This document shows, in pieces, positions 3,806 through 32,545 of a stretch of 64,000 bases of DNA. Location of the stretch: positions 16,860,126-16,924,125 of the forward strand of contig NC_079224.1 in the NCBI RefSeq assembly GCF_029633865.1, given 5' to 3'. How positions within the stretch are numbered: position 1 is the first letter of the stretch; each line of letters starts with the position of its first letter. The DNA comes from Lampris incognitus (lineage: Eukaryota; Chordata; Actinopteri; Lampriformes; Lampridae). The notes beneath the pieces were generated by a model. It was not told the origin of the DNA. It worked only from the letters and a program-made list of their open reading frames with translations, and did no database searches. The translations under genes and the position numbers were made by a program.

Positions 3806-5396
3806 CATGCATCAAGACATGCCAAAACAAGGAAATTAAAGGCAAATAGTTGTGAATTTCTATTTCTGAATATGACAATCCTATGTCCCGAAGCCTTGGG
3901 AGTGTGACCCATGTTGGACCACTCTTCCAGGAGATCATCATCACATTTCCATTTAAAGCATTAATTCATAGATTTACTGATACCAAGACAAGTATTATTC
4001 AACGCGCGAATCGATTTCTAATATTCAGTTTACTGAGGGTGTATCTATCTTTAAAACAGTAAGATAGGTCTGTGGTCTCTATGTCTCTATTAGAGTAATG
4101 TCAAAGAGATGTAAGACTTATTTTGTTTTATGAAAATCTTTATTACCTAGATGTAACATCCAACAAAATGTGGATGAAAGGCAAATCAGCAGACTGTACC
4201 TTTTATGGATTTATTTCCACAGAAAGTGGGAAAGAAAAGATGTTTGCAGCCTGTTACCATGGAGAACCAACAGAAAAGGCCAGTCTTTGCAGAACCGGAC
4301 AACCTAAGTAAAAAAAAAAAAGAAGAAAAAAAAGTACTGTGACAGATGTAGGCATTGTCAGTATCAGATTGGAGACACAGCTGAAGAGGAGCTGGTTGGG
4401 AGCACGGCTGAGTGTTTAATAAATGATCCACCGGTTGGGGGATGTCATGGAGAGCTGAACATCTTCACACAACTCTCCTCGGTCCTCGCCAATGTCATCC
4501 CAAGAGTTTTATCTGCATGCATTAACTGAACAAAGTTGATGCGAGCAGACTTGGGGCTATGGAGGTCTGTGTTTATGTAACAGATCAAGCTCGATCATGT
4601 GACTTGGATGCGGCGCCCCCGGAGAAAAGAGTGACACAAGATGCCAGAGCAAAAGCATGCAACATGGTGTTAGCTTCTCCTCCCTCCTCTCCCTTACCAC
4701 TCTCAACCAACGGCTCTCACCAGGCCCGTGGAGGGGTGTCCCATAGGCTGCCTGAGAGTAGTGGCAGTCCTATCTCATTTGTTCATTTTTCTCCCTTTTC
4801 TGCTTTCAAGCCAAGCCTATCCTACCCCCTGGGTGAGTGCGTCCCGTGCCAGTTCGACTAACGCTGAACTCCATTGGAGCGACTGCAATGAAAAGGCTTG
4901 AGGTGGATGCCAACATCACCCCAGAACAACTTCCCTCAGCTACAACTGTACATGCATCTCCACAAGAGAGCAAGGGAACTTTCACTCGATGTGTACTTTA
5001 CAATATGTGACCACTGTGGGGCGGCTAGCTCGATAGATTTGGTTATACATTCACATTTAATGTTCTTTTAACATTTGCCGCTACTTAGCACATCAATACT
5101 CTGCAGACCAAGCGGGTTTGGTTTCTTGGGTCTGGTGAGAGAAAATTTGAAAATACAAATTCTTCCCTGACTAAAGGTTGTTCATTTCCTGACATGCCAA
5201 ATTAAAGAAGAAAAAAAAGCAGATAAAAATAATTTCTACTTGCTGAATGTACGCATTAGATTAAGTATAATAGGGCTGGGTGCAGTTACATACATTGAAA
5301 CATCAGTACACAAGAAAAACCAAAACAATATTTTTGACAATTTCAAATAAAGACGAAAGCATAAAAGTCTCATTACTTAGCAGGTTTTGGTTTTAC
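3806..5396. other. Unrecognised intergenic sequence
   Basis: Only short, motif-free open frames are present. No repeat family was recognised. Confidence 0.4.
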
Positions 5397-5472
5397 AAGT
5401 CAAATCAAGTCAAATTTATTTATATAGCACATTTAAAACAACCACAGTTGAACCAAAGTGCTGCACAAGCTT
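5397..5472 (-). mobile_element. LINE 3'-tail fragment
   Basis: The sequence caagtcaaatttatttatat followed by agcacatttaaaacaacc and aaagtgctgcacaagctta matches the usual minus-strand 3' tail of fish LINEs, ending in (tcaag)n-like repeats. No coding region is attached. Confidence 0.5.
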
Positions 5473-7439
5473 AAAATACAATATAAAATAAGTGACACAT
5501 ATGAATATAAAATATATGTAAAGAAGACATAATAAAATAAAGAATATAAAATGTAAACAATAAAACATAAGAGTAAAAGTATATTTGCACAATAAAATCA
5601 CACTGTCAAGCTCAACTTGAATTGAATGCCAGTGACACACCTGAGATACTCTGAGATATGCGCTAGTAATACAAATATTATTCTGTGCATCCTCTCTCCA
5701 TACTTGTGCTTGGGGACATTTTACATAAGGCACAAATGCTCATTAGAGGAGCAACTAAGAAGAAAAAAAAACTCTAAAAAATCTCTCAATTGGATGACAT
5801 GAGCTGAAAATATGTCTAATTTTTGTTTGCACAACTTGTGAAGCAAAGTAAACTGTAATAAAAAGCATGTACTGTGTGTACTTTGGGTTTCAGGCCCCAG
5901 GAAATAATGCATTGAATCAACACTGTCGGTTGAAAGGCACACATGGTGCACGGCAAAACAGCATTTAACTAAATTGTAATGTAAATGTCTCTTTTATAGC
6001 TCCCAATCATGATTCAGTATTACCTGCAAATCTGATCCGATGAACAAAAAGAGTTTAAAAGGTCTATGTTGTATCAAGCATGTAGATAGATAGATGGATT
6101 GATAGATATATTATGTGGCGCTTACTAGCTTCTGATGCACCCAGGTCAATACAGCCAAAAGGTTTATGAAATCTTGTTTAACCTTCCTCTCTGCTGTTAT
6201 TTTCACGCTCTCGGGATGGTGAACTTTTCGATCAGGATGGTACACCCCACCAGGAGCACTACCCTTTCAAATGAACAAAACAGCAAAGGCTCGCTTGAGG
6301 AGCTGTAGGGTCTTAATCTTTGACATTATCTTGTCAAAACCAGCCATGTCATTAAGTGATTTGGGGCAAGCCCAAAGGAGCAGCAGACCTAGTCAGGGTC
6401 ATTTGGGATACCAGGGATATGTTTACTGGCGGTCCTTCTTCCAGACGCCTTGGTTAGCAGCATTGCCCTTTTCCAGCACTTACAAACAAGAAGACCCACC
6501 AACTCAGTGAACTCGAGACACTGGTCATCTAATATTCATGTCAAAGATGTGCACTTTGTTCTGCGGTTTTGCAGTTTCAGCAACATAATTGCTGAAATCA
6601 CATTTTCTATATTTACAACAAAATGACTTGTCATCAGAAAAGTTAAGATGATAATAAAAAATTATGAATAAAAATGTATTTAAAGAACATCAATTTGCAT
6701 TGCTTTTCTTTTGATAGAACTTTGAATGGGGATTTAAAGGTAAAATTATTATGTATTTATTTATTTATTTTTTATGGCGTCCAGGCATTTGTTATGTAGG
6801 TGTGCAGGATATTAACCACTAGATGGAAATCGTGTCCAATGGAAATGAAGTCATAGGCTGCTCCCATATTTACAAAATATGAACACATCATGAATTATTC
6901 TAAAAGTGCTCAATTCTGTGCAAATATCCTGTTACAAGTGTTGGTTTGAGGAAAAAAAGGATAAAGAAAATATCAAATATACATACGTGCTGTGCTGTAA
7001 CTTTGTAACTACACTGCTGAAATTGTATTTGTAGAGAGGAGGACAGTTGTGTGGTGACGGACCGGTTTGTGCTGAGTTTAGTTAAGTAGCTCTTACTGAA
7101 TGTAAGACGTGTAGGGGAGACTGCAGACAGATGCAGCACTTTTTGGATTTCTCTCAATTACTCAGATCAAGACTATTTGGACTAGACCAACCGAATTTTT
7201 ATATATTAACTTACATCTGTCAGCTCATTACCCATACCATTCAAATATGATTATATATGACATATCGCTCACAATATTTATTTCAATTAAAGCTGGTTGC
7301 CGCCGAAAGACTCATGGCTTGGGGACGCCTTATTGAGAAAGTGGGGTGCCTCTTTAGAAAGCCAGTGAACCAGTCAACACCAGCCATACCAGCCTCACCC
7401 CATATGAATGAAAATTATTTGACATTGTATTTGTACAAC
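5473..7439. other. Unrecognised intergenic sequence
   Basis: No gene supported. There is a small TAGA-type repeat near 6085-6115 and a short ATTT run near 6755-6770. The remaining open frames are below 105 codons and motif-free. Confidence 0.4.
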
Positions 7440-22470: not shown

Positions 22471-22681
22471 ATAAAAATCTCCCTCTCACCCTTTTCGGGT
22501 GGTGTGTCTCTTCCTCAAGCTCGGGTCCTCTACCAGAGGCCTGGGAGTTTGAGGGTTCTTTGCAGTAGCTTAGCTGTTCCTAGGACCCCACTCTTCTGGA
22601 CAGAGACCTCAGTTGTTGTTCCTGGAATCTGCTGGCGCCACTCTCCCAGTTTGGGGATCACAGCCCCTCCCCTAGTGCTCC
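22471..22681 (-). mobile_element. R2-like LINE, 3' part (left of transposon)
   Basis: Minus-strand 3' portion of the LINE whose upstream part lies at 31850-32545. The two pieces become contiguous in the block encoding VVPVVIG when the 9.16-kb transposon is removed. Confidence 0.7.
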
Positions 22682-22787
22682 AATTCGGCTCGTAAGCACG
22701 ACGTCACGACGCGACGTCACGTGTGGGCGGAGTTATACTTCCGGTGCCTTGGGGAATCTAACTGCATTATTTTCCACTCAAAACAAT

Positions 22788-22964
22788 ATGCCTGAACCCG
22801 TAAATATATTTACATTAACGTCTTTTTTTAAAGACGAACCTCTCAGGGTGAAAAAGGGTCTCAATGCTTTCAATTCAGATAGAGTTGTGAACGTAAATGT
22901 TTCAGGGGGCATTATAAAAGGCAAGGTACAGGCTTCCATGAAACAGAAAGTTTATCAGGTTGAG
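22788..22964 (+). CDS. Nuclease gene exon 1
   Basis: ATG at 22788; 59 codons ending YQVE before gtgagt, phase 0. Contains KKGLNAFNSDRVVNVNVSGG and KGKVQASMKQK, the usual lead-in to a SWIM finger. The start lies about 100 bp inside the transposon end. Confidence 0.75.
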
Positions 22965-24219
22965 GTGAGTGAGCTAACAGGGTTAGCTAGCGTTAGCTTG
23001 GTAATGTTGGGTATTCTGGCTTCTGATGTTATATCCCACGTTTACTGGCGATTCATAAGCCTTGGATAAAGACTGCCAGTGCTTTATTTTGTCGGTAGAT
23101 AATTGTTTTCCGACGTTTGACTTGTTAAAATAACTGACGTTCTTGGATCCAAGGCTAGCTTTTCATGTGTCTAGCTCCAGAATGGCTATGATCGTACATA
23201 CTGTAACGCTGTAAAGGTTTAATGAATTTAAAATACATATTAGGAATTAATGAAATATAGATTTACATGTAAGATCACAGCCATTCTAGGGCTACCATGT
23301 GTGCTACGATCTGTTTCTTATTAACGTTATAGGCCACGTTGGATACAGGTCAGCTGGGCACCAGGAAATCTCTGGGCACCTTGATGTAAAATGTTCTATT
23401 TTGTCCAAAATGTTTGGAAACATGTAATATTAGAAGAATGGTCTTAACCACATGAACCCCAGCATTCATTTAGTCATCCTCAGACGAGTTTGCCAAGGGT
23501 TTTAATTAAATTTAATTAATCAAATTAATCAAATTTAAACCTTTGTGCGTATTTAAGGACTGTGGGGCACAACTCCTCACAGCTCTTGAACCATTCTTAG
23601 TCTGTTCCCTCCTAGACCAGTTTGCCATGTGTGACCCTACAGTAGCGCAAGGCTACAGACAACATAGCTCTCGGGATTCATGGGGTCACTCAAACCTCTC
23701 CACCACGTTAAGGTGATGGTTCGAGGAGAGCATAACATAATAACATAAAACACAAGACACTTAGTTAGAGCCCTGAAGGACTCTGTCCAACCATATGGGT
23801 TGGATAAGTGGTTAAGTAATGTAAAGTATACATGATGTGAACATGCACGGTACATCATTATCAGGCTTAATTTTACCCACGTGACCCAGTATTGGTCAGC
23901 TCCCAGTACAACAGCAGTAAACTGAAGTTGTACTGGTCAGGTCCCAGTACAACAATATTGCACTTTGGTTGTGGGTTGGTCAGCTCCAGTATCAGAATTA
24001 TTTTAATACTGTTTTGCATGAAATACCCAATTTTACATTGAGGATTCGGATTTCCCTAGTGCCCATCTGAACTGCAACTCGATGTTCAGGTTTATAACAT
24101 TATAAGCCATGTTACCTGGCTTTGCGAATAAAAAGCCACCCCCCTGGGCTAGTTGCTTATGTCTGGTAGGCACTGTGATGTCTAGGGTTGTTGTGAGGGT
24201 TAAGTTGTGTTTAATACAG

Positions 24220-24430
24220 GTACATGTAGAAAGTCAGAAAGTGAGCTACAGCACGTGCGAGTGCCCTATCGGCAAGGACAAGTGCCATCACATGGCAGCA
24301 TTGCTGATTTGGGTGGAGAAAAATGTGTCCCGGACAGACGTGGAATGTATGTGGAAGAGGGCGAAGACACCAAAATCGGATGATATCGTTGCCAAGAGAG
24401 TGTCTGTGATGGCACCATCCACATCACAAG
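24220..24430 (+). CDS. Nuclease gene exon 2 (SWIM finger)
   Basis: Acceptor ttaatacag, donor caag|gtaagt. Encodes VHVESQKVSYSTCECPIGKD then KCHHMAALL, a CxC..CxH SWIM zinc finger thought to bind DNA or protein. Joins exon 1 in phase 0. Confidence 0.85.
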
Positions 24431-24554
24431 GTAAGTAATTGAAGTTAAATTGTTTAATTTGTAGTGTACATACTGTTCCTTTTAAATTATAATTAGGAAG
24501 TCTTATCGCAATGATGAAGAACAATTATTAATTAGACTTTGCATTTTATTTCAG

Positions 24555-24667
24555 CTGGAATCAAAACACCTGTAACATAGGAGGTCAAGGATTGGACTGT
24601 GTCATCCTTGTCTCAGCTCGGTCGTTTTACTGGCATGTGGTGGATCTTGAGTCCAGAAACACCTCAG
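24555..24667 (+). pseudogene. Nuclease gene exon 3, with in-frame stop
   Basis: Acceptor ttatttcag. Joined in phase 1 it reads AGIKTPVT, then a TAG stop (24578-24580), then EVKDWTVSSLSQLGRFTGMW in the same frame. A single C-to-T change from CAG would explain the stop. Donor cctcag|gtagga. Confidence 0.7.
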
Positions 24668-24815
24668 GTAGGACTTCTATCTTCTTTACTTTGATTTGGC
24701 CCACGGGGACAATTCAGCCAGGTGGAAATCATCCCAACACTCAACAAGTGCAATGTAATTTGAACCAGGGTTGTCTAAATTGGTGTAATGTGTAATAAAA
24801 AAAACAATGACCAAT

Positions 24816-25320
24816 TAAAGGGGAATTTCGGTTTTTAAGACCCTGGACCCTATTTTTTCATCTGCTTTTATCTAAATAAATGGTGGAATTGCTGGCAAGG
24901 AAAACGGGGACGGACAGACCGACAAAGCCTGTCCGTCCCCGTTTTCCTTCCCAGCAATTCAGACTTCAACCATCGGGGGTTGGAGGGGATTGGAGGGGTT
25001 GTTTGGGGGAAGGGGGAGGTCTCCATGCATTTTTTCACAATTTTTTTCCCATGTGAGTGAATGGGGCGACACAACTTTTGTCTAGCCCATTTTTGGAGTG
25101 TGGAGTTTGGATGTGGAAATATGTCAGATTTGGGGGGTTTTCTCCAGGTTTTTTTGTGTTGGTCCAATGCAAACAAAGTAAAGGAATACGTGAATACCAA
25201 AGAATTTGTAATTGTAACAATTTTCTGGGAGAAGTGGTGCATTACCTGACCGAAGTGCCGGGGCGACAAGACTTCTGTTAATGACTGTAGAGATAGGGTC
25301 TAAAATCAAAGTCCTCATAT
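24816..25320 (+). mobile_element. TTAA-type MITE-like sequence in intron, with hairpin
   Basis: Starts ttaaaggggaatttcggttt, a common left end of fish TTAA-duplicating MITEs; the matching right end was not found. A 31-bp inverted repeat with one mismatch and a 13-nt loop lies at 24886-24916/24930-24960. It occupies the place where a coding exon of the nuclease gene would be expected. Confidence 0.45.
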
Positions 25321-25574
25321 GTCACCCCTTGGTGTCATAGTACCTAGAAAGTCAATCCCCCATAGTTCTCTCCTTAGGAGTAGATTATCTATGTCTCCCC
25401 CTTGTAATAAATACCACTGGTCCATTAATAAAGTATTGTAGTTCATGTTAAAGCATTGAACATTTATGAATGACTATTTCAATCCAGTGGTATGAGCACC
25501 TAATGTTTATAATACAGCATAGACATAGGATGCTTGTCTATGTGAGCTGTATCTTTTGGATGTCTTTATAACAG

Positions 25575-25707
25575 GATGGCTTATCGCAAGAAGCGAATCA
25601 CCGCCAGCAACTTTGGTTTGGTCTTGGCTGCAGTCAAGCGCAACCGGTACCCACCGTCCTTGTTCAAAACCCTGCTTGGCCAGTACAACTTCAAAGAAGG
25701 TTCTAAA
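25575..25707 (+). CDS. Nuclease gene exon 4 (YqaJ start)
   Basis: Acceptor tttataacag, donor tctaaa|gtaagt. In the conserved frame it reads MAYRKKRITASNFGLVLAAV, then RYPPSLFKTLLG. RITASNFG is the first conserved block of YqaJ domains. It begins in phase 2, whereas exon 3 ends in phase 0. Confidence 0.8.
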
Positions 25708-25754
25708 GTAAGTTATGCTGTAATAATGATTTCAACTTAAGATGTCATTGTATC

Positions 25755-25970
25755 AGGGGGCACGGGGGCAAAATGGTAACACTGTCGCCTCACAGCGAGA
25801 AGGTCGTGGGATCGATACCCGCAGAGGACCTTGTGGGCACTGTGTGACGTGTTCACTCCTCCATGTCATCGGTGCCCACACCTTGGGTGGGGTCGGTGAA
25901 AGGGCCTTTCTGTGTGGAGTTTGCATGGTCTCCCCGTGCCCCCAGGGGTTACCTGCATAGGCCCCCATTT
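25755..25970 (+). mobile_element. tRNA-derived SINE fragment in intron
   Basis: ggcaaaatggtaacactgtc (A-box region), gtgggatcgatacccg (B-box-like), then gtgtggagtttgcatggtct, as in the family-1 SINE body. Truncated before the tail. Confidence 0.6.
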
Positions 25971-26131
25971 CACAAAGGCATGCAAAATCATGTGTACTAT
26001 ACTGCCTCCCTCTGGTCTGAACGGGCGCCTGATGGGAGAGATTGCCTTGGCATCAACGCACCCACTTTTGGGAAACCCTGCTCTAACGATTATGAATTGA
26101 GTGGTATGTTTTTCCCACTCACTTTCTCAAG

Positions 26132-26287
26132 GCCTGTGACTGGGGAATCACTCATGAAGCCACGGCAAAGCAGGACTACACCAAGATAACCGGTCTGGTC
26201 GTCCAGGAGAGGGGGGTCTTCCTGTCGAACAGTGGCCTGTTGGGTGCATCTCCAGATGGGACAGTGTCTGACGAGTGCATTATTGAG
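26132..26287 (+). CDS. Nuclease gene exon 5 (YqaJ catalytic core)
   Basis: Fifty-two codons between tttctcaag and gag|gtacag, phase 0 on both sides. Carries WGITHEATAKQDYTKITG, then LLGASPDGTVSDECIIE. The Glu of WG..HE, Asp of SPDG and final Glu are expected metal ligands. Confidence 0.85.
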
Positions 26288-26324
26288 GTACAGTTATATT
26301 TAGTCAATATACATTATACTAGGC

Positions 26325-26444
26325 CAGTGGTTCTCAACCTGTGGTACATGTACCACTGGTGGTACTCAGGAGTCTCTACCCTGTATTTTACCATTATGGT
26401 GTTACTTAGAGAGACACTTGGTGTAAAAAGGTTGAGAACCACTG
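26325..26444. mobile_element. hAT-type MITE, 120 bp
   Basis: Terminal inverted repeats cagtggttctcaacc and ggttgagaaccactg, flanked by exact 8-bp duplications tactaggc (26317-26324 and 26445-26452). It sits in intron 5 of the nuclease gene, just after exon 5. Confidence 0.93.
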
Positions 26445-26764
26445 TACTAGGCAATTAATCAAAAAACAAAACTGAAACAGAGATAATGAACCACCCTAAT
26501 TTCAAATCTCACCGGGGGCCGATAACTATAAAGATAAGTATGATATTGTTCACCATTGTATAATTGTTATAGTCTATGTGAACACTGTCATCCACTTGAC
26601 TTGATCATTGTAACTAACTGCTCAGTGAGAACTTTATACTTCATTCTCCGATGGTGATGTACAAGTGATGTAAAAGTTGGGACGTTGTATAAAATGTAAA
26701 TAAAAGCTGAATACATCTATTTGCTAATCTTTTTCAACCTGTATGCAATTGGGTACAGTGCAAA

Positions 26765-26890
26765 GACAAGTTTGTTTTTTTTAACTTTGTTCTTTTCGGG
26801 CATTTGCCTTTATTTGTAGAGAGATAGGATAGAGTTGAAAGGGGGGGATATAGAGTAGAGACCAGCGGTAAAGCTGGCCAAACGGGAAAA
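26765..26890 (-). mobile_element. SINE fragment related to 27117-27320
   Basis: Shares aactttgttctttt, ggcatttgcctttattt, gagttgaaagggggggatat and gaccagcggtaaagctggcc with the fuller copy 350 bp downstream. Lacks the tRNA-like head. Confidence 0.6.
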
Positions 26891-26914
26891 TGGTAGGGGG
26901 TCGTCATGCTTTGG

Positions 26915-27480
26915 CATCCTGGATGAGTTATGAAAGTCACATGAGCACAAAAAATGAAAACCTTATTGTTAAAACCATCCTGCAGCTGTCCACCAAGTTT
27001 GGTTCAGATTGGTCAAGTAGTTAAAAGCAGTTGGAAGGTCACAAAAAAAGGAAAAGCCTTGCACCCAGAATTGCAGCAGGCAATTGTATTGGGCAGCGAG
27101 ACTCTAAATGGCTTTTTTTTTTTAACTTTGTTCTTTTTAGGCATTTTGCCTTTATTGTAGAGAGAAAGGACAGAGTTGAAAGGGGGGATATAGAGAAGAG
27201 ACCAGCGGTAAAGCTGGCCGAACGCCGCCAACCGCTACTTGGGGTTTATGCTTCGACCGGGTATCGAACCCGGGTCTGTGGCGTCCCAAGCAAAATGTCT
27301 TACTGACGCGCCACGCCGGCAGACTGTAAATGGCTTTTACTTTTTGTGTTACCTTCAACTGCTTAACTACTTGATCGCTCTGGACCAAACTTGGTGGACA
27401 GCTGCAGGATGGTCGTAACGATAAGGTTTTCAATTTTTGTGCACATGTCACTTTCATAACTCGTCCAGGATGCCCAAACA
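26915..27480. mobile_element. Inverted-repeat MITE split by a SINE
   Basis: An arm at about 26915-27055 (ccaccaagtttggttcagat, aagtagttaaaagcagttg) is the imperfect reverse complement of about 27335-27480. The interior holds a SINE with its own target duplication. It lies in intron 5 of the nuclease gene. Confidence 0.65.
27117..27320 (-). mobile_element. tRNA-derived SINE with 18-bp target duplication
   Basis: Minus-strand tRNA-like head: ggcgtggcgcgtcagtaaga and a gggttcgatacccgg B box. The body ends in a T run on plus (A tail on minus). Flanked by agact(c/g)taaatggctttt at 27099-27116 and 27321-27338, one mismatch. Confidence 0.8.
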
Positions 27481-27746
27481 TGACGACATTCATTCTTTCT
27501 TGTTAGGAAGCATTCATTCCTTCTTGTTACCACAATTCTGCAAAAAATATGGGGCCGATTAGCACAGACCTTGGTTGGAAGACAGATTATAGTATCTTTG
27601 ATTCAAAGTGCGGTTTGTCGGGAGAAAGTGATGTAACACATCAGTAGACTAGACATGCGCCTGTCCCCCCCTCCTGTCCCAAGTTTTTCGGAACGTGTTG
27701 CAGCCATCAAAGTTAATATTTGCATAAAAACAACAGTTTGTCAGTT

Positions 27747-28124
27747 TGCTCTTAAAACCAACATTGCCATGCCATGGTAGTCCCAATCGAGAAACGGCTC
27801 GGCAAAATCAAAGAAAATTCGCTTGCATGATGTGCTCTTGTAATCGTTTTCAGAATATCTGTGTTGGTTTGGCTACAGTCTTAGCTTTTAGACTACTGGA
27901 TACCTTTCTCGGCGGGGAGGATGTTGGCTGCATAGCTCCATACTTCTCATGTCCTCCCGGCTGAGAAAGGTATCCGCTGTCTAAAAGCCATGACTGTAGC
28001 CAAACCAACGCAGATATTCTGAAAATGATTACAAGAGCACATCATGCAAGCTATTTTCTTTGATTTTGCTGAGCCGTTTCTCGATCAGGACTACCATGGC
28101 ATGGCAATGTTGGTTTTAAGAGCA
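27747..28124. repeat. Long palindrome (MITE-like), 378 bp
   Basis: Arms of about 175 bp pair with few mismatches around a loop of about 27 nt near 27922-27948. The ends are tgctcttaaaaccaacattg and its complement. No flanking duplication is evident. It is in the last intron of the nuclease gene. Confidence 0.85.
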
Positions 28125-28297
28125 TCTCTCCTATCCCTCCCATGTTTAAAGAGAGGAAAGTGGCCGTAGTGGGCAGGGGAACGGCTGATCACGTGACACG
28201 GGGGAGGAACTGACTTTACCTTCTTTTTTAAGTACCTTGGTCCACTGCTTGCCTTTACACAATAAATTGTGATGTTTTTCATAATACCCACCTCTAG

Positions 28298-28594
28298 GTC
28301 AAATGTCCCTGGTCAGTGAAAAACCTGACAGTCCGACAGGCAGCAGCAGAGAAAGGGGACTTCTTTCTGCAGCTGGATGGAGAGTCTGGTTCCCTGACAC
28401 TACGGCCAACACATCCATACTGGCATCAGATCCAGGGCAACCTACAGCTGACTGGAGCCAGCACTTGCCACCTGGTTGTATGGACCCTTTCTGATCTCGT
28501 CATCCTGCCAGTGCTGAAAGACCCAACATGGGCACGTAACATAGATGTTCTGGAAACATTTTACAAGGATATTTTCCTACCAAAAATTCTGTAG
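28298..28594 (+). CDS. Nuclease gene last exon (YqaJ C-terminal)
   Basis: Acceptor cacctctag; 98 codons and TAG. Begins VKCPWSVKNLTVRQAAAEKG, completing the E-V-K motif. It continues with THPYWHQIQGNLQLTGAS and VVWT, ending FYKDIFLPKIL. A 28-bp block at 28498-28526 is repeated in inverted orientation at 28625-28654. Confidence 0.88.
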   Translation, partial: VKCPWSVKNLTVRQAAAEKGDFFLQLDGESGSLTLRPTHPYWHQIQGNLQLTGASTCHLVVWTLSDLVILPVLKDPTWARNIDVLETFYKDIFLPKIL

Positions 28595-28780
28595 AGACCC
28601 TAGGGACATGAATGAGGAACTGGACCTAAGGGTCTTTCAGCACTGGCAGGATGACTACACTATTATACCCCACTACAACACTATTCGGAACACACACAAC
28701 ACATTTCATTGCACACGGTAAATCTCATTGCAAATTTGCATATTTAAATGTTGTATTCATCATATGGTGATCCTCTTCTT

Positions 28781-28966
28781 TACGTTGACAGTAGTTTTTG
28801 CACTATGCATTTTTTTACCAATGTTGATGTTTTGCACTTTATACATTTTACGTTGACAGTAGTTTTTGCACTATGCATTTTGTTACCAATGTTGATGTTT
28901 TGCACTTTATACTTTTTACAGTGACATTAGTTTTTGCACTATGCATTTTGTTACAAATGTGTTTTG
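28781..28966 (+). repeat. 68-bp tandem repeat, about 2.7 copies
   Basis: Each copy has tacgttgacagtagtttttg, cactatgcattttgtta, ccaatgttgatgttttgcac. The period is 68 bp and the last copy is partial. It lies between the 3' ends of the two convergent transposon genes. Confidence 0.85.
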
Positions 28967-28972
28967 ATTAAA
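28967..28972 (+). terminator. Putative poly(A) signal ATTAAA, nuclease gene
   Basis: First canonical-type hexamer after the nuclease stop on the plus strand, about 375 bp downstream and just short of the transposase poly(A) signal on the other strand. Confidence 0.4.
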
Positions 28973-29004
28973 AAAATCAAGCAGTGTTCTTAATTCAGTA
29001 TTAC

Positions 29005-29010
29005 TTTATT
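29005..29010 (-). terminator. Putative poly(A) signal AATAAA, transposase gene
   Basis: AATAAA on the minus strand about 50 bp after the transposase stop codon, close to the opposing ATTAAA of the nuclease gene. Confidence 0.55.
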
Positions 29011-29060
29011 AAAAGTATAAATACATGAATCTGATTCTGCTTACATTTATTCAAGTCATT

Positions 29061-31757
29061 TCATGCTATTTCCCGAAGAATTGGTGTTTGTAGGTTGGTA
29101 AGACACACGCACACTTTCAGTATTTTGTTTATGTTTTTAGTGAACTGATATGGGATATTGTCCAAAATGTTGAACAATTTCAACCTCTGAATGGAGCGCT
29201 CCACATGGATCCTAGCACTGGATGTGAGTTTGTTTTTCTTAACTTCTTCTTGTGTGAACTGTCCATTAACAAGGAAAGACGGGATGTTGAGTGAAACCCC
29301 TTCTGGCAAGATGTCCCAGATTGTGAAGCCTTTATCTGCCATCACCATGTCTCCTGGGCGTAGATGATTGAGAACTCCAGAATCTAATGTAATAGCCTTG
29401 TCTGAGGCACTTCCACCATAATAGTCACTGACAAATGTTATCACTCCATTAGGAGCCACACCTATTAAGGCTTTGTGTGTGGTCCGTTTTTTGTACTGGC
29501 TCCATAAATGATTCTGTTTGTCAAGCCTCTCTGTCCTGGAGACTGCTAACTCTGTGCAATCGAGCACAATCCTACAGTTAGGAAACGGACGGAAACACTC
29601 TGGCAACGATGCCTGGTTCTTCTCTATGGAGGGGATGTTGTTCTCAAGCATACCAACATATAAAATGTCATACAGGGCACTGACAATGGTGATAAAAATG
29701 TTGGTAACTGTGGCTGTACTGCAATTAAACCTGGTTGCAAGGTGTTCATGACCAGAATTAAGTTTGAGCTTCATCAAAGTCAGTAGCAACTGATCGACTA
29801 GTGGCATAGACTGGACTGTCCAATTCGAATGATATTGTAGCTCAAACTTAGATAAGAGTGCTTCCAAAACCAGGACGGTAGCAACATTTGGTAAGCCAGT
29901 GAAATATTTTACTTTGACACGATTGGAAGATATTTGGCTGAAGGAAAAGGTCTGTTTTTGTTTCTCCAATTCTCTTTTCAATTTTTCATTCTCTCTTCTC
30001 AACATGTCAACCTCTATCTCTAGCAGCGCAACACTGTTAAAAGGGTTGTCTGAAGTACAAGGGGTGTCTGCGGTTGGGTTGTCTGAAGTACTAGGGGTGT
30101 CTGCGGTTGGGTTGTCTGAAGTACTAGGGGTCTCTGCGGTTGGGTTGTCTGAAGTACTAGGGGGCTCTGCGGTTGCAATGTCAGAATTTTGTAATTCAAG
30201 TTCATTTGTCCCTTCTTCACCACTGGGAGGGAGTGGTACTGTTTTTCTCTTATTGTGTGGAAGGCTGAGGTGGCCTGGGAAAGTCTTCCCCTCATTCCAA
30301 GCAAAACGTGATGGGCCAGCAGCTTTGCCATTTGGAAAATGCCAACTGCACACCCTTGAGCAGGGGCTTGGTGTAAAGCCATCACGCCTGTAAAAAAAAA
30401 AAAAGAATGAGAGATTTAGAAATGATTGGCAATGAAAACTTGAAGCTGCATTGTAACTTATCGTCTGCCCTGGATTTGAACAATTAAAGTGGCATTCTTT
30501 AACTTTTTTTGATAAAAAATAAAGTTGATTTTGGTCACAATTTACCACTATCTTTCACTGAAGGAGGTAACAGAGGACTGATTTAGCCTATTTCCCATTC
30601 ATGAAATCTTCAGCATCTGCTACAATGCCCATTTTTGTGTCTGTGTCTGGTTAGACACAGTCACAAACATGGGCATTGTAACAGATGGTGAAGGATTTGT
30701 GAATGGGAAATAGGCTAAATCAGTCCTCTGTTACCTCCTTCAGTGAAAGATAGTGGTAAATTGTGACCAAAATCAACTTTATTTTTTATCAAAAAAAGTT
30801 AAAGAATGCCACTTTAACCATCAATTATTTAAAACACAATTTCTATTGTGTTAACATACTCTACTGTAAAGATTGTATAATGATATTATACAAACAGTCT
30901 ACCATACAGATTGGGCAAGTTATATTGTATTCACATACTATACAATACAGATTTTTTTGGGGGGGGCAAATATTATAGCCTTTTCATAGCCTTTTCATAA
31001 AGGAAAGGTTACATAGTAAGGCTTTAGAATTAGATGTCAGTCTCCCTACGGAAACATTATTTTTTGTAGATATGAAGTTTCATTTTTTGATTTATATGGG
31101 AAAAGTCAGAAGTGAAACTACTGTAACAAAACAGGCAGAAACAGCACATTCACCTGGACTATCTAACGTTATGTACCCCTGCTTATTCATGCATTTACTC
31201 CAAGTCTCTTTAATGATAATCCCCTTGAGATGCATCATCTCGTTTTAGATAATCATGGGCTAACAATGCATAGAATAATGCAGTTTTCCGAGTGTGTAGC
31301 TGACATAATGCTTGCTTACAGTAACTGTATGTCTTCACAGACAGGGTTGTAGTAGTAACAACATAAGTGGCTAACCGATGCTTGTTTACCCTCCACTACA
31401 CTCTGATTAAAGCCTTATTGAGCAGAAAAACATATGGAAAAGCACATATATTGATCCTCGCTTGTTGAATTAGCTAAAAATCTAAATACCTGTCTCGTAT
31501 GTAACGTGGATTTCGGTAACAAGAGGGTAGCTACCGGTAGTAGCTAGTCTGCAGTGCAGGGTAGCTAGTCTGCACTTAGCACAAAAGTCGGCGCCAAACT
31601 TCGATTTTCAATGCATTTCTTCAATAGCAACTTACCGTATTAACTGCAGCCACCTCTTCTTATCTTTGTCTTTCGGAGGAAAGCGATAGAAAGACAGTTT
31701 GGTCTCAGTTTTACTCTCTGGTCGATTTAAACAAAGGGGGACACAGCAGTGAGGCAT
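29061..31757 (-). CDS. THAP-domain DDE transposase of the ISL2EU-like element
   Basis: Two exons: 31757-31636 (ATG, 122 bp) and 30387-29061. The donor cg|gtaag and acceptor tttacag join in phase 2 to give 482 codons with no stop. Exon 1 begins MPHCCVPLCLNRPESKTETK and reaches WLQLIR; exon 2 continues RDGFTPSPCSRVCSWHF. Together they make a complete C2CH THAP finger (about residues 1-85). Next come four 11-residue repeats (TSDNPTADTPS-like, about 115-157), a coiled coil (about 159-187), an HTH region (about 235-287) and a DDE_4-type core. The core has D317 in IVLDCTE, D392 in MADKGF and E437 in ARIHVERS. Role: binds the transposon ends through THAP and catalyses cut-and-paste transposition in the nucleus. 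Apparently intact. Confidence 0.92.
30043..30174 (-). repeat. 33-bp in-frame tandem repeat in transposase
   Basis: Four copies encoding an 11-residue Thr/Ser/Asp/Pro-rich unit, between the THAP finger and the coiled coil. Likely a flexible, length-variable linker. Confidence 0.9.
30488..30813. mobile_element. TTAA-flanked palindromic MITE, 326 bp
   Basis: Starts agtggcattctttaac and ends with its complement. TTAA lies on both sides (30484-30487 and 30814-30817), and the arms of about 150 bp pair almost perfectly around a short loop near 30650. TTAA duplication suggests a piggyBac- or Kolobok-mobilised MITE. It lies in the single intron of the transposase gene. Confidence 0.88.
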
Positions 31758-31849
31758 ATTGTCAACAAGTCGATGGAGCCGGAAGCAAATTCGCGCGCGT
31801 GCGCCTACGCAACAGGGACGTGCCTACGTCATAGCTTAAGACGCGAATT

Positions 31850-32545
31850 ACCACTGGGACTACTGTGGATTTTACCTTCCACATCCGATCTAGTTCTTCC
31901 CTCAGCCCTTGGTATTTCTCTTGCTTCTCATTGTTCTTTCTACCTGATGTTGCTGTTGCTATGTCGATCACTACTGCTGTCGTCTTTTCCTCGTCGACCA
32001 CCACAATGTCTGGTTGGTTAGCCAGCACCTGCTTGTCAGTCTGGAACTTGGAAGTCCTACAGGATCTTAGCTCTGCCATTCTCAACTACCTTTGGCAGTG
32101 TCTCCAATTGGGAGTTGGGGACTTCCAGTCTGTATTCACATATTCCTGTATACTATCCCAGCCACTTGATTATGCCTTTCAGTGTACACTTTCCCAGCTA
32201 GCATTTTACACCCTGCTATTAAGTGCTGGACTGTCTCGGGGACATCTTTGCACAGCCTGCATCTTGTCTTGTCTTGTTTGGTAGACCCCTGCCTCAATTG
32301 ATCTGGTCCTGAGTGCCTGTTTTTGTGCTGCTATGTTCATAGCCTCTGTGCTGTCCTTTAGTCCAGTCTTTTCTAGCCACTGGTAGGATTTCTCGATATC
32401 AGCTACGTCTTCTGTGTGTCAATGGTACATTCCATGGAGGGGCTTCATCTTCCATGATACCTTCTCTTCTTCTTCTTCCTCTGCACTCTGTCTTCTGCTG
32501 TCTGAGGTACTCACTCAGCAGTTCATCTTGGGGGGCCCTCTTTTC
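31850..32545 (-). mobile_element. R2-like LINE, endonuclease-region remnant
   Basis: The minus strand encodes TDKQVLANQPDIVVVDEEK, then TAVVIDIATA, then EKYQGLREELDRMWKVK. This resembles the PD-(D/E)XK restriction-like endonuclease tail of R2/NeSL-type LINEs. The part 5' of this is more decayed. The 9.16-kb transposon interrupts it right after VVPVVI, and the remaining 3' end lies at 22471-22681. Confidence 0.65.

Follow-up and report, generated by a model that had tools for sequence, protein, structure and literature searches.

ISL2EU has been described as a group of the PHIS superfamily, with two open reading frames (ORFs), an average length of ~4.8 kb and termini that usually start with GG; elements with both proteins are already published, and in PMC4482050 the function of the second protein is stated to be unknown. 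PIF/Harbinger elements resemble ISL2EU in combining a related DDE transposase with a second DNA-binding protein, but in them that protein is of the Myb/SANT type and the target duplication is TWA, whereas Spy has one ORF and inserts into AAATTT without a target duplication (PMC4482050). In published trees, Spy is the sister group of ISL2EU, and it has been found in invertebrates only. For teleosts, a survey (PMC9179366) reports no single-ORF Harbinger elements and regards both ORFs as probably essential, a statement on Harbinger, not ISL2EU. Here we analyze a 64,000-nucleotide stretch of the genome of the fish Lampris incognitus (contig NC_079224.1, positions 16,860,126 to 16,924,125; hereafter the window), which contains a 9,162-bp element with a THAP-DDE transposase gene and a convergent SWIM-YqaJ nuclease gene. 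In our assessment (probability of about 0.8), this is a young ISL2EU copy in whose family movement is driven by the transposase, with the nuclease as an auxiliary that is not needed in cis.

The element compared with ISL2EU

Comparison across copies places the element at positions 22685-31846, with termini TCGG...GCGA, imperfect terminal inverted repeats and an AT target duplication on each side (22683-22684 and 31847-31848). The preliminary description of the window had delimited the insertion at 22686-31845; a bounded insertion with two convergent multi-exon genes was indeed found, but each end lies one base further out, as judged from 17 fetched copies. Both ends could be located in 17 of the 20 fetched copies; of these, 15 are flanked by AT/AT, one by GT/GT and one by AT/TA, and the A and T flanking the duplicated AT are a preference only. 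A 4-bp AATT duplication, which the window alone would suggest, was rejected because the copies vary outside the AT and one carries GT/GT.

The likeness to published ISL2EU (PMC4482050) comprises an animal host, two ORFs, a transposase with THAP, HTH and DDE domains and a complete catalytic triad, a second ORF with a YqaJ domain (2.1e-17, albeit in a gene that is broken in this copy) and an AT duplication (described for ISL2EU with an A|AT|T target), which was found in the window and in 15 of the 17 fetched copies. The differences are the length of 9.2 kb, the broken second gene, the start with TCGG rather than GG (a typical but not a defining feature) and the predominance, within the family, of a transposase-only deletion form. 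Neither the TWA duplication nor the Myb/SANT protein of PIF/Harbinger was found, and both the second ORF and the target duplication separate the element from Spy, which the deletion form resembles only in having a single gene. Copies with the same termini, the absence of which would have spoken against a transposon, were found throughout the 1.48-Gb genome: the left terminus recurs at 96-100% (40 scored of 111 candidates) and the right one at 99-100% (40 of 108). The ISL2EU assignment, already made in the preliminary description, is thus supported by the domains, the gene pairing, the AT duplication and the many genomic copies; judged by these sequence features, the element is an ISL2EU transposon of a young family. 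That the two genes are host genes and no transposon is involved is extremely improbable: both contain introns and their animal homologues are annotated as proteins, but the shared termini, target duplications, near-identical copies across the genome and insertion into a long interspersed nuclear element (LINE) led us to reject this reading. No sign of the two genes as separate, ordinary host genes was seen in relatives, where no systematic test was made.

The transposase gene lies on the minus strand and consists of two exons, 31757-31636, with the first part of the THAP domain, and 30387-29061, with the rest of THAP, a repeat linker, the HTH and DDE domains and the stop codon. The spliced frame is intact (482 amino acids) and matches THAP (4.7e-12), HTH_Tnp_4 (1.1e-13) and DDE_Tnp_4 (4.1e-41) in Pfam, all above the cut-offs; together with the triad D317, D392 and E437, these domains and the linker were confirmed at the positions first proposed. 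The linker is encoded by 33-bp repeats, four units of which were detected by a repeat scan (30043-30174, minus strand); the corresponding TSDNP units number four in the window and in the long copy L009 and six to eleven in 15 complete deleted copies. A heptad-like stretch in the transposase, where the preliminary description placed a putative coiled coil, was noted by eye only.

The nuclease gene, on the plus strand, is broken in the window, because a TAG (24578-24580) in exon 3 (24555-24667) replaces a Q of the homologues and because an exon of ~53 codons, which should follow exon 3 and is present in fish homologues and in copies L010, L029 and L030, is missing. The remaining exons are in place: exon 1 (22788-22964, by alignment to homologue P0015), exon 2 (24220-24430, by Pfam and homologue alignment), the exon in which the YqaJ domain starts (25575-25707), a further exon of the YqaJ domain, in which the HE and SPDG motifs lie (26132-26287; YqaJ match of 3.2e-07 on its own), and the last exon (28298-28594), which opens with the K of the ExK motif and runs through the stop codon. 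It is these last three exons that, when joined, yield the above YqaJ match. The element therefore does not deserve the label 'autonomous-type' that it was first given: this copy is not structurally autonomous, and autonomous ISL2EU elements are defined in PMC4482050 by two intact ORFs. We consider it very unlikely that alternative splicing still yields a working second protein; from a reading of the sequence, the use of an AG further downstream in the first YqaJ exon could bring that exon into the frame of exon 3, but the stop codon in that exon would still be translated, and the ~53-codon exon that is kept in relatives would still be absent.

Of the two domains originally proposed for this protein, YqaJ was confirmed, whereas the SWIM-type finger (24256-24291, in exon 2) stands as a motif but not by profile, its match of 17.8 bits being below the Pfam cut-off of 19.6. 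Among ten relatives, two (P0252 and P0257) exceed the SWIM cut-off, six fall below it and two (P0015 and P0253) give no match, yet the latter two contain the motif; among the 150 returned second-gene proteins, counted whether or not they span that region, 19 contain the motif pattern. PMC4482050 makes no mention of a SWIM finger, and subscription papers and Repbase reports were largely outside the search.

Deleted and undeleted copies in the genome

Among the 20 fetched copies, which were the best-ranked of 39 other left-end matches, 17 lack the stretch that corresponds to 23864-28728, i.e. nuclease exons 2 to 6 (the last). Fifteen of these are complete, and the right ends of the other two (L015 and L026) were not seen. 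The three that do not belong to this class are L009, a long form of 8.6 kb, L010, from which exon 2 of the transposase and the final nuclease exons are gone, and L014, whose match to the window ends at 24335. The 15 complete deleted copies are 3.86-4.45 kb long, and differ by 0.14-1.02% (mean 0.73%). All have one common junction filler, trimmed in two copies and altered at one base in two, which shows that a single deletion was amplified. A genome-wide census with a 29-base pattern spanning the breakpoint of the deletion, in which at most two mismatches were allowed, returned 83 deleted and 12 undeleted sites; the reversed control pattern returned none. Because copies without most of the nuclease gene are thus the commoner ones and have diverged so little, the gene, to judge from these sequence comparisons, is not needed in cis for the recent burst.

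The full frame of transposase exon 2 is retained in 8 of the 15 complete deleted copies. In the other 7, the frame ends at a common frameshift or earlier; identical inserted bases were read directly in six, in the seventh (L018) the frameshift was read from the end of the frame, and L027 has an additional, earlier break. Across the genome, 28 of the 83 deleted sites lie within 2 kb of the common frameshift pattern (37 such sites in all), at least 32 have a transposase segment at >=99% within the same distance (counted among the top 40 scored of 109 matches), 23 belong to neither class and none to both. Since frameshifted copies were amplified, the transposase works in trans.

These counts bear on the possibility that the nuclease is wholly dispensable and that the transposase-only form is a self-mobilizing lineage, to which we assign a little less than an even chance. 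The number of deleted sites, the at least 32 of them near a nearly identical transposase segment, the 8 of 15 copies with a full exon 2 frame and the single ORF of the sister group Spy all favor it; however, the 28 sites near the frameshift imply that mobilization in trans is certainly at work, the nuclease active site is conserved (see below), and no sign of selection on the transposase of individual copies was detected (10 codon variants in 10 copies). With similar caution, somewhat short of even odds, we consider that transposase-only ISL2EU is independent and self-mobilizing here, so that a vertebrate ISL2EU would have converged on the one-gene plan of Spy. Given the view of both ORFs as probably essential in the teleost survey (for Harbinger), the deletion variants are relevant here: being recent and natural, they allow a direct test of whether a lambda-type nuclease is needed for the movement of a cut-and-paste transposon.

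In sequence, the undeleted copies come as close to the window copy as the deleted ones do (98.8-99.7% between the window and L009 in three segments); therefore, full-length copies also moved recently. We read eight of the 12 undeleted copies, partly or completely, and found damage in every one. Besides the stop codon and missing exon of the window copy, two exons are missing at C16:8.95 Mb and the 3' exons at C10:35.86 Mb and C11:4.56 Mb; there is a stop codon in the first YqaJ exon at C13:20.72 Mb and another in the last exon at C1:117.53 Mb, where the transposase frame is broken as well; and in the copies at C3:71.09 Mb and C3:24.50 Mb the frame is disrupted by a shared lesion where exon 1 contains a T run. 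For the remaining four (C1:74.56, C26:4.80, C3:24.52 and C9:53.99 Mb), damage is deduced only from exons that were not found. An intact nuclease gene is thus likely to be absent from the assembly. At C3:71.09 Mb, the later exons are open, and an internal start could, on the sequence, give a protein with the SWIM and YqaJ parts. Nuclease-exon fragments without the breakpoint pattern were seen at C10:49.22, C2:83.99 and C1:130.37 Mb. The C3:71.09 Mb copy belongs to a head-to-tail pair, as ~20 bases before its left end there is the right end of a further copy (L037, C3:71091400-71092050).

Role and conservation of the nuclease

The nuclease could, conversely, be essential but supplied in trans, in which case the deleted copies would be parasites of full-length ones and the last functional gene would have been lost recently, be unassembled or reside in a copy that only looks damaged. 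This is a possibility that we rate clearly short of even. It would account for the strong conservation of the active site and for the recent movement of full-length copies, and many further YqaJ genes are present in the genome; but all eight undeleted copies that were read are damaged, the other four look incomplete, and the closest fetched pairs of deleted copies are very young (0.14%).

Several observations weigh against the reading that we prefer, in which the transposase drives movement and the nuclease is an auxiliary. The data are also compatible with a supply of nuclease in trans. A working nuclease may exist in the genome, because the damage in four undeleted copies was deduced from an exon search in which 119 of 414 candidates were scored, and because the T-run lesions at C3:24.50 and C3:71.09 Mb may be base-calling errors, although both copies have the same one. 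The fetched copies, chosen by rank, are not a random sample. Finally, in the 10 copies whose transposase frame is open, all 10 codon variants change an amino acid (against a chance expectation of 72%), so that evolution following insertion looks unconstrained. It is the possibility of supply in trans, together with the many distant YqaJ genes, that leads us to the middle position of a transposase-driven element with an auxiliary nuclease.

Under this preferred scheme, and from what is known of such families, the transposase would recognize the element ends via THAP and HTH, cut with the DDE site and insert at AT-containing targets, while the SWIM-YqaJ nuclease would be an auxiliary that works in trans on ends of DNA, either at the donor site or in the course of repair, and that benefits the element in the long run without being required for each transposition. 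The nuclease perhaps resects donor ends, as its predicted fold would suggest; the preliminary description had proposed that it could act at excision or integration.

Among 37 relatives picked by hand from the search results, the residues of the active site are almost invariant (E in 37 of 37, D in 36, the second E in 36 and K in 37; two Q residues in 36 of the 36 with letters present); the exceptions are P0088, without the D, and P0019, without the second E. Because the active site is conserved across animal relatives, the SWIM-YqaJ protein probably serves the element in some way. A structural model of homologue P0241 (mean predicted local distance difference test score, pLDDT, 72.0; 71-98 from residue 181 onward and 25-62 before it) has its best matches among solved folds in lambda exonuclease (2.2e-09), LHK-Exo (2.2e-08) and SOX (3.5e-05). 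Thus, the homologues combine the predicted fold of a lambda-type exonuclease with the E/D/ExK active site, and the N-terminal part of the model is of low confidence, so it lends no support to a SWIM fold. In this modeled fold the partner resembles lambda exonuclease and the herpesvirus alkaline nuclease; unlike them, it is the product of a eukaryotic transposon and is fused to a SWIM-type finger.

The pairing of the two proteins recurs in other fishes, as far as names in the search tables, rather than genome sequences, indicate: in Trichomycterus rosablanca, the transposase is LOC134312143 and the nuclease LOC134312144, on equally long contigs, and in Coilia grayii and Sparus aurata the gene names are comparably close and the contigs again equally long. 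Relatives of both proteins were also found in the hagfish Myxine glutinosa (P0019, P0250, P0141 and P0143; 54-67% identity in alignments that cover part or most of the query), which is of interest given that the gain of ISL2EU is placed at the base of teleosts in the survey (PMC9179366).

Insertion site and further observations

The element is inserted in an old LINE copy, parts of which, read from the sequence and from LINE relatives, lie outside its left end (22501-22684) and its right end (31847-32122), both on the minus strand. With the flanks fused across a single AATT, the LINE reading runs through the junction; a nearby 5-base duplication shifts the frame of this LINE copy. The joined flanks (458 bases) match LINE copies at 87-89%, most of them over the full length (40 scored of 2302 candidates), and represent the empty site. 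In the four LINE junctions read, the sequence is AATA in three and AGTA in one, compared with AATT in the window; therefore, one base beside the duplication differs. Elsewhere in the window, no further terminus of this kind was found with a 19-base pattern (up to four substitutions). In viral contigs, the LINE peptide as query gave 29 stretches that fit a peptide pattern, with no true relative among them, and nuclease homologue P0001 gave no pattern match. Within the introns of the window copy lie long inverted repeats (26900-27487, 27747-28124 and 30484-30817; arm length 72-165 bases), which are probably small nested elements and, together with other intron sequence, may explain the length of this copy.

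Many more YqaJ matches, at 25-41% identity, occur in the same genome (119 scored of 414 candidates), several with open frames of 250-516 codons (for example, L044, 2378-3475, plus strand). In two distant families, an intronless YqaJ ORF is convergent with an HTH_Tnp_4 ORF (L042, 1860-3410 plus and 4881-5711 minus; L043, 2188-3264 plus and 4095-4913 minus), and DDE_Tnp_4 is also present in L043. The cysteine-rich C-terminal tail of both YqaJ proteins resembles a PHD finger by eye, and in Pfam the match is sub-threshold for L042 (0.013) and absent for L043; no paper that brings together YqaJ, a PHD finger and a transposon was found in the open literature, most subscription papers being outside the scope. 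In Lates calcarifer, two annotated E2F proteins (P0269 and P0270) contain a short SWIM-YqaJ-like stretch, perhaps a transposon fragment in the gene model.

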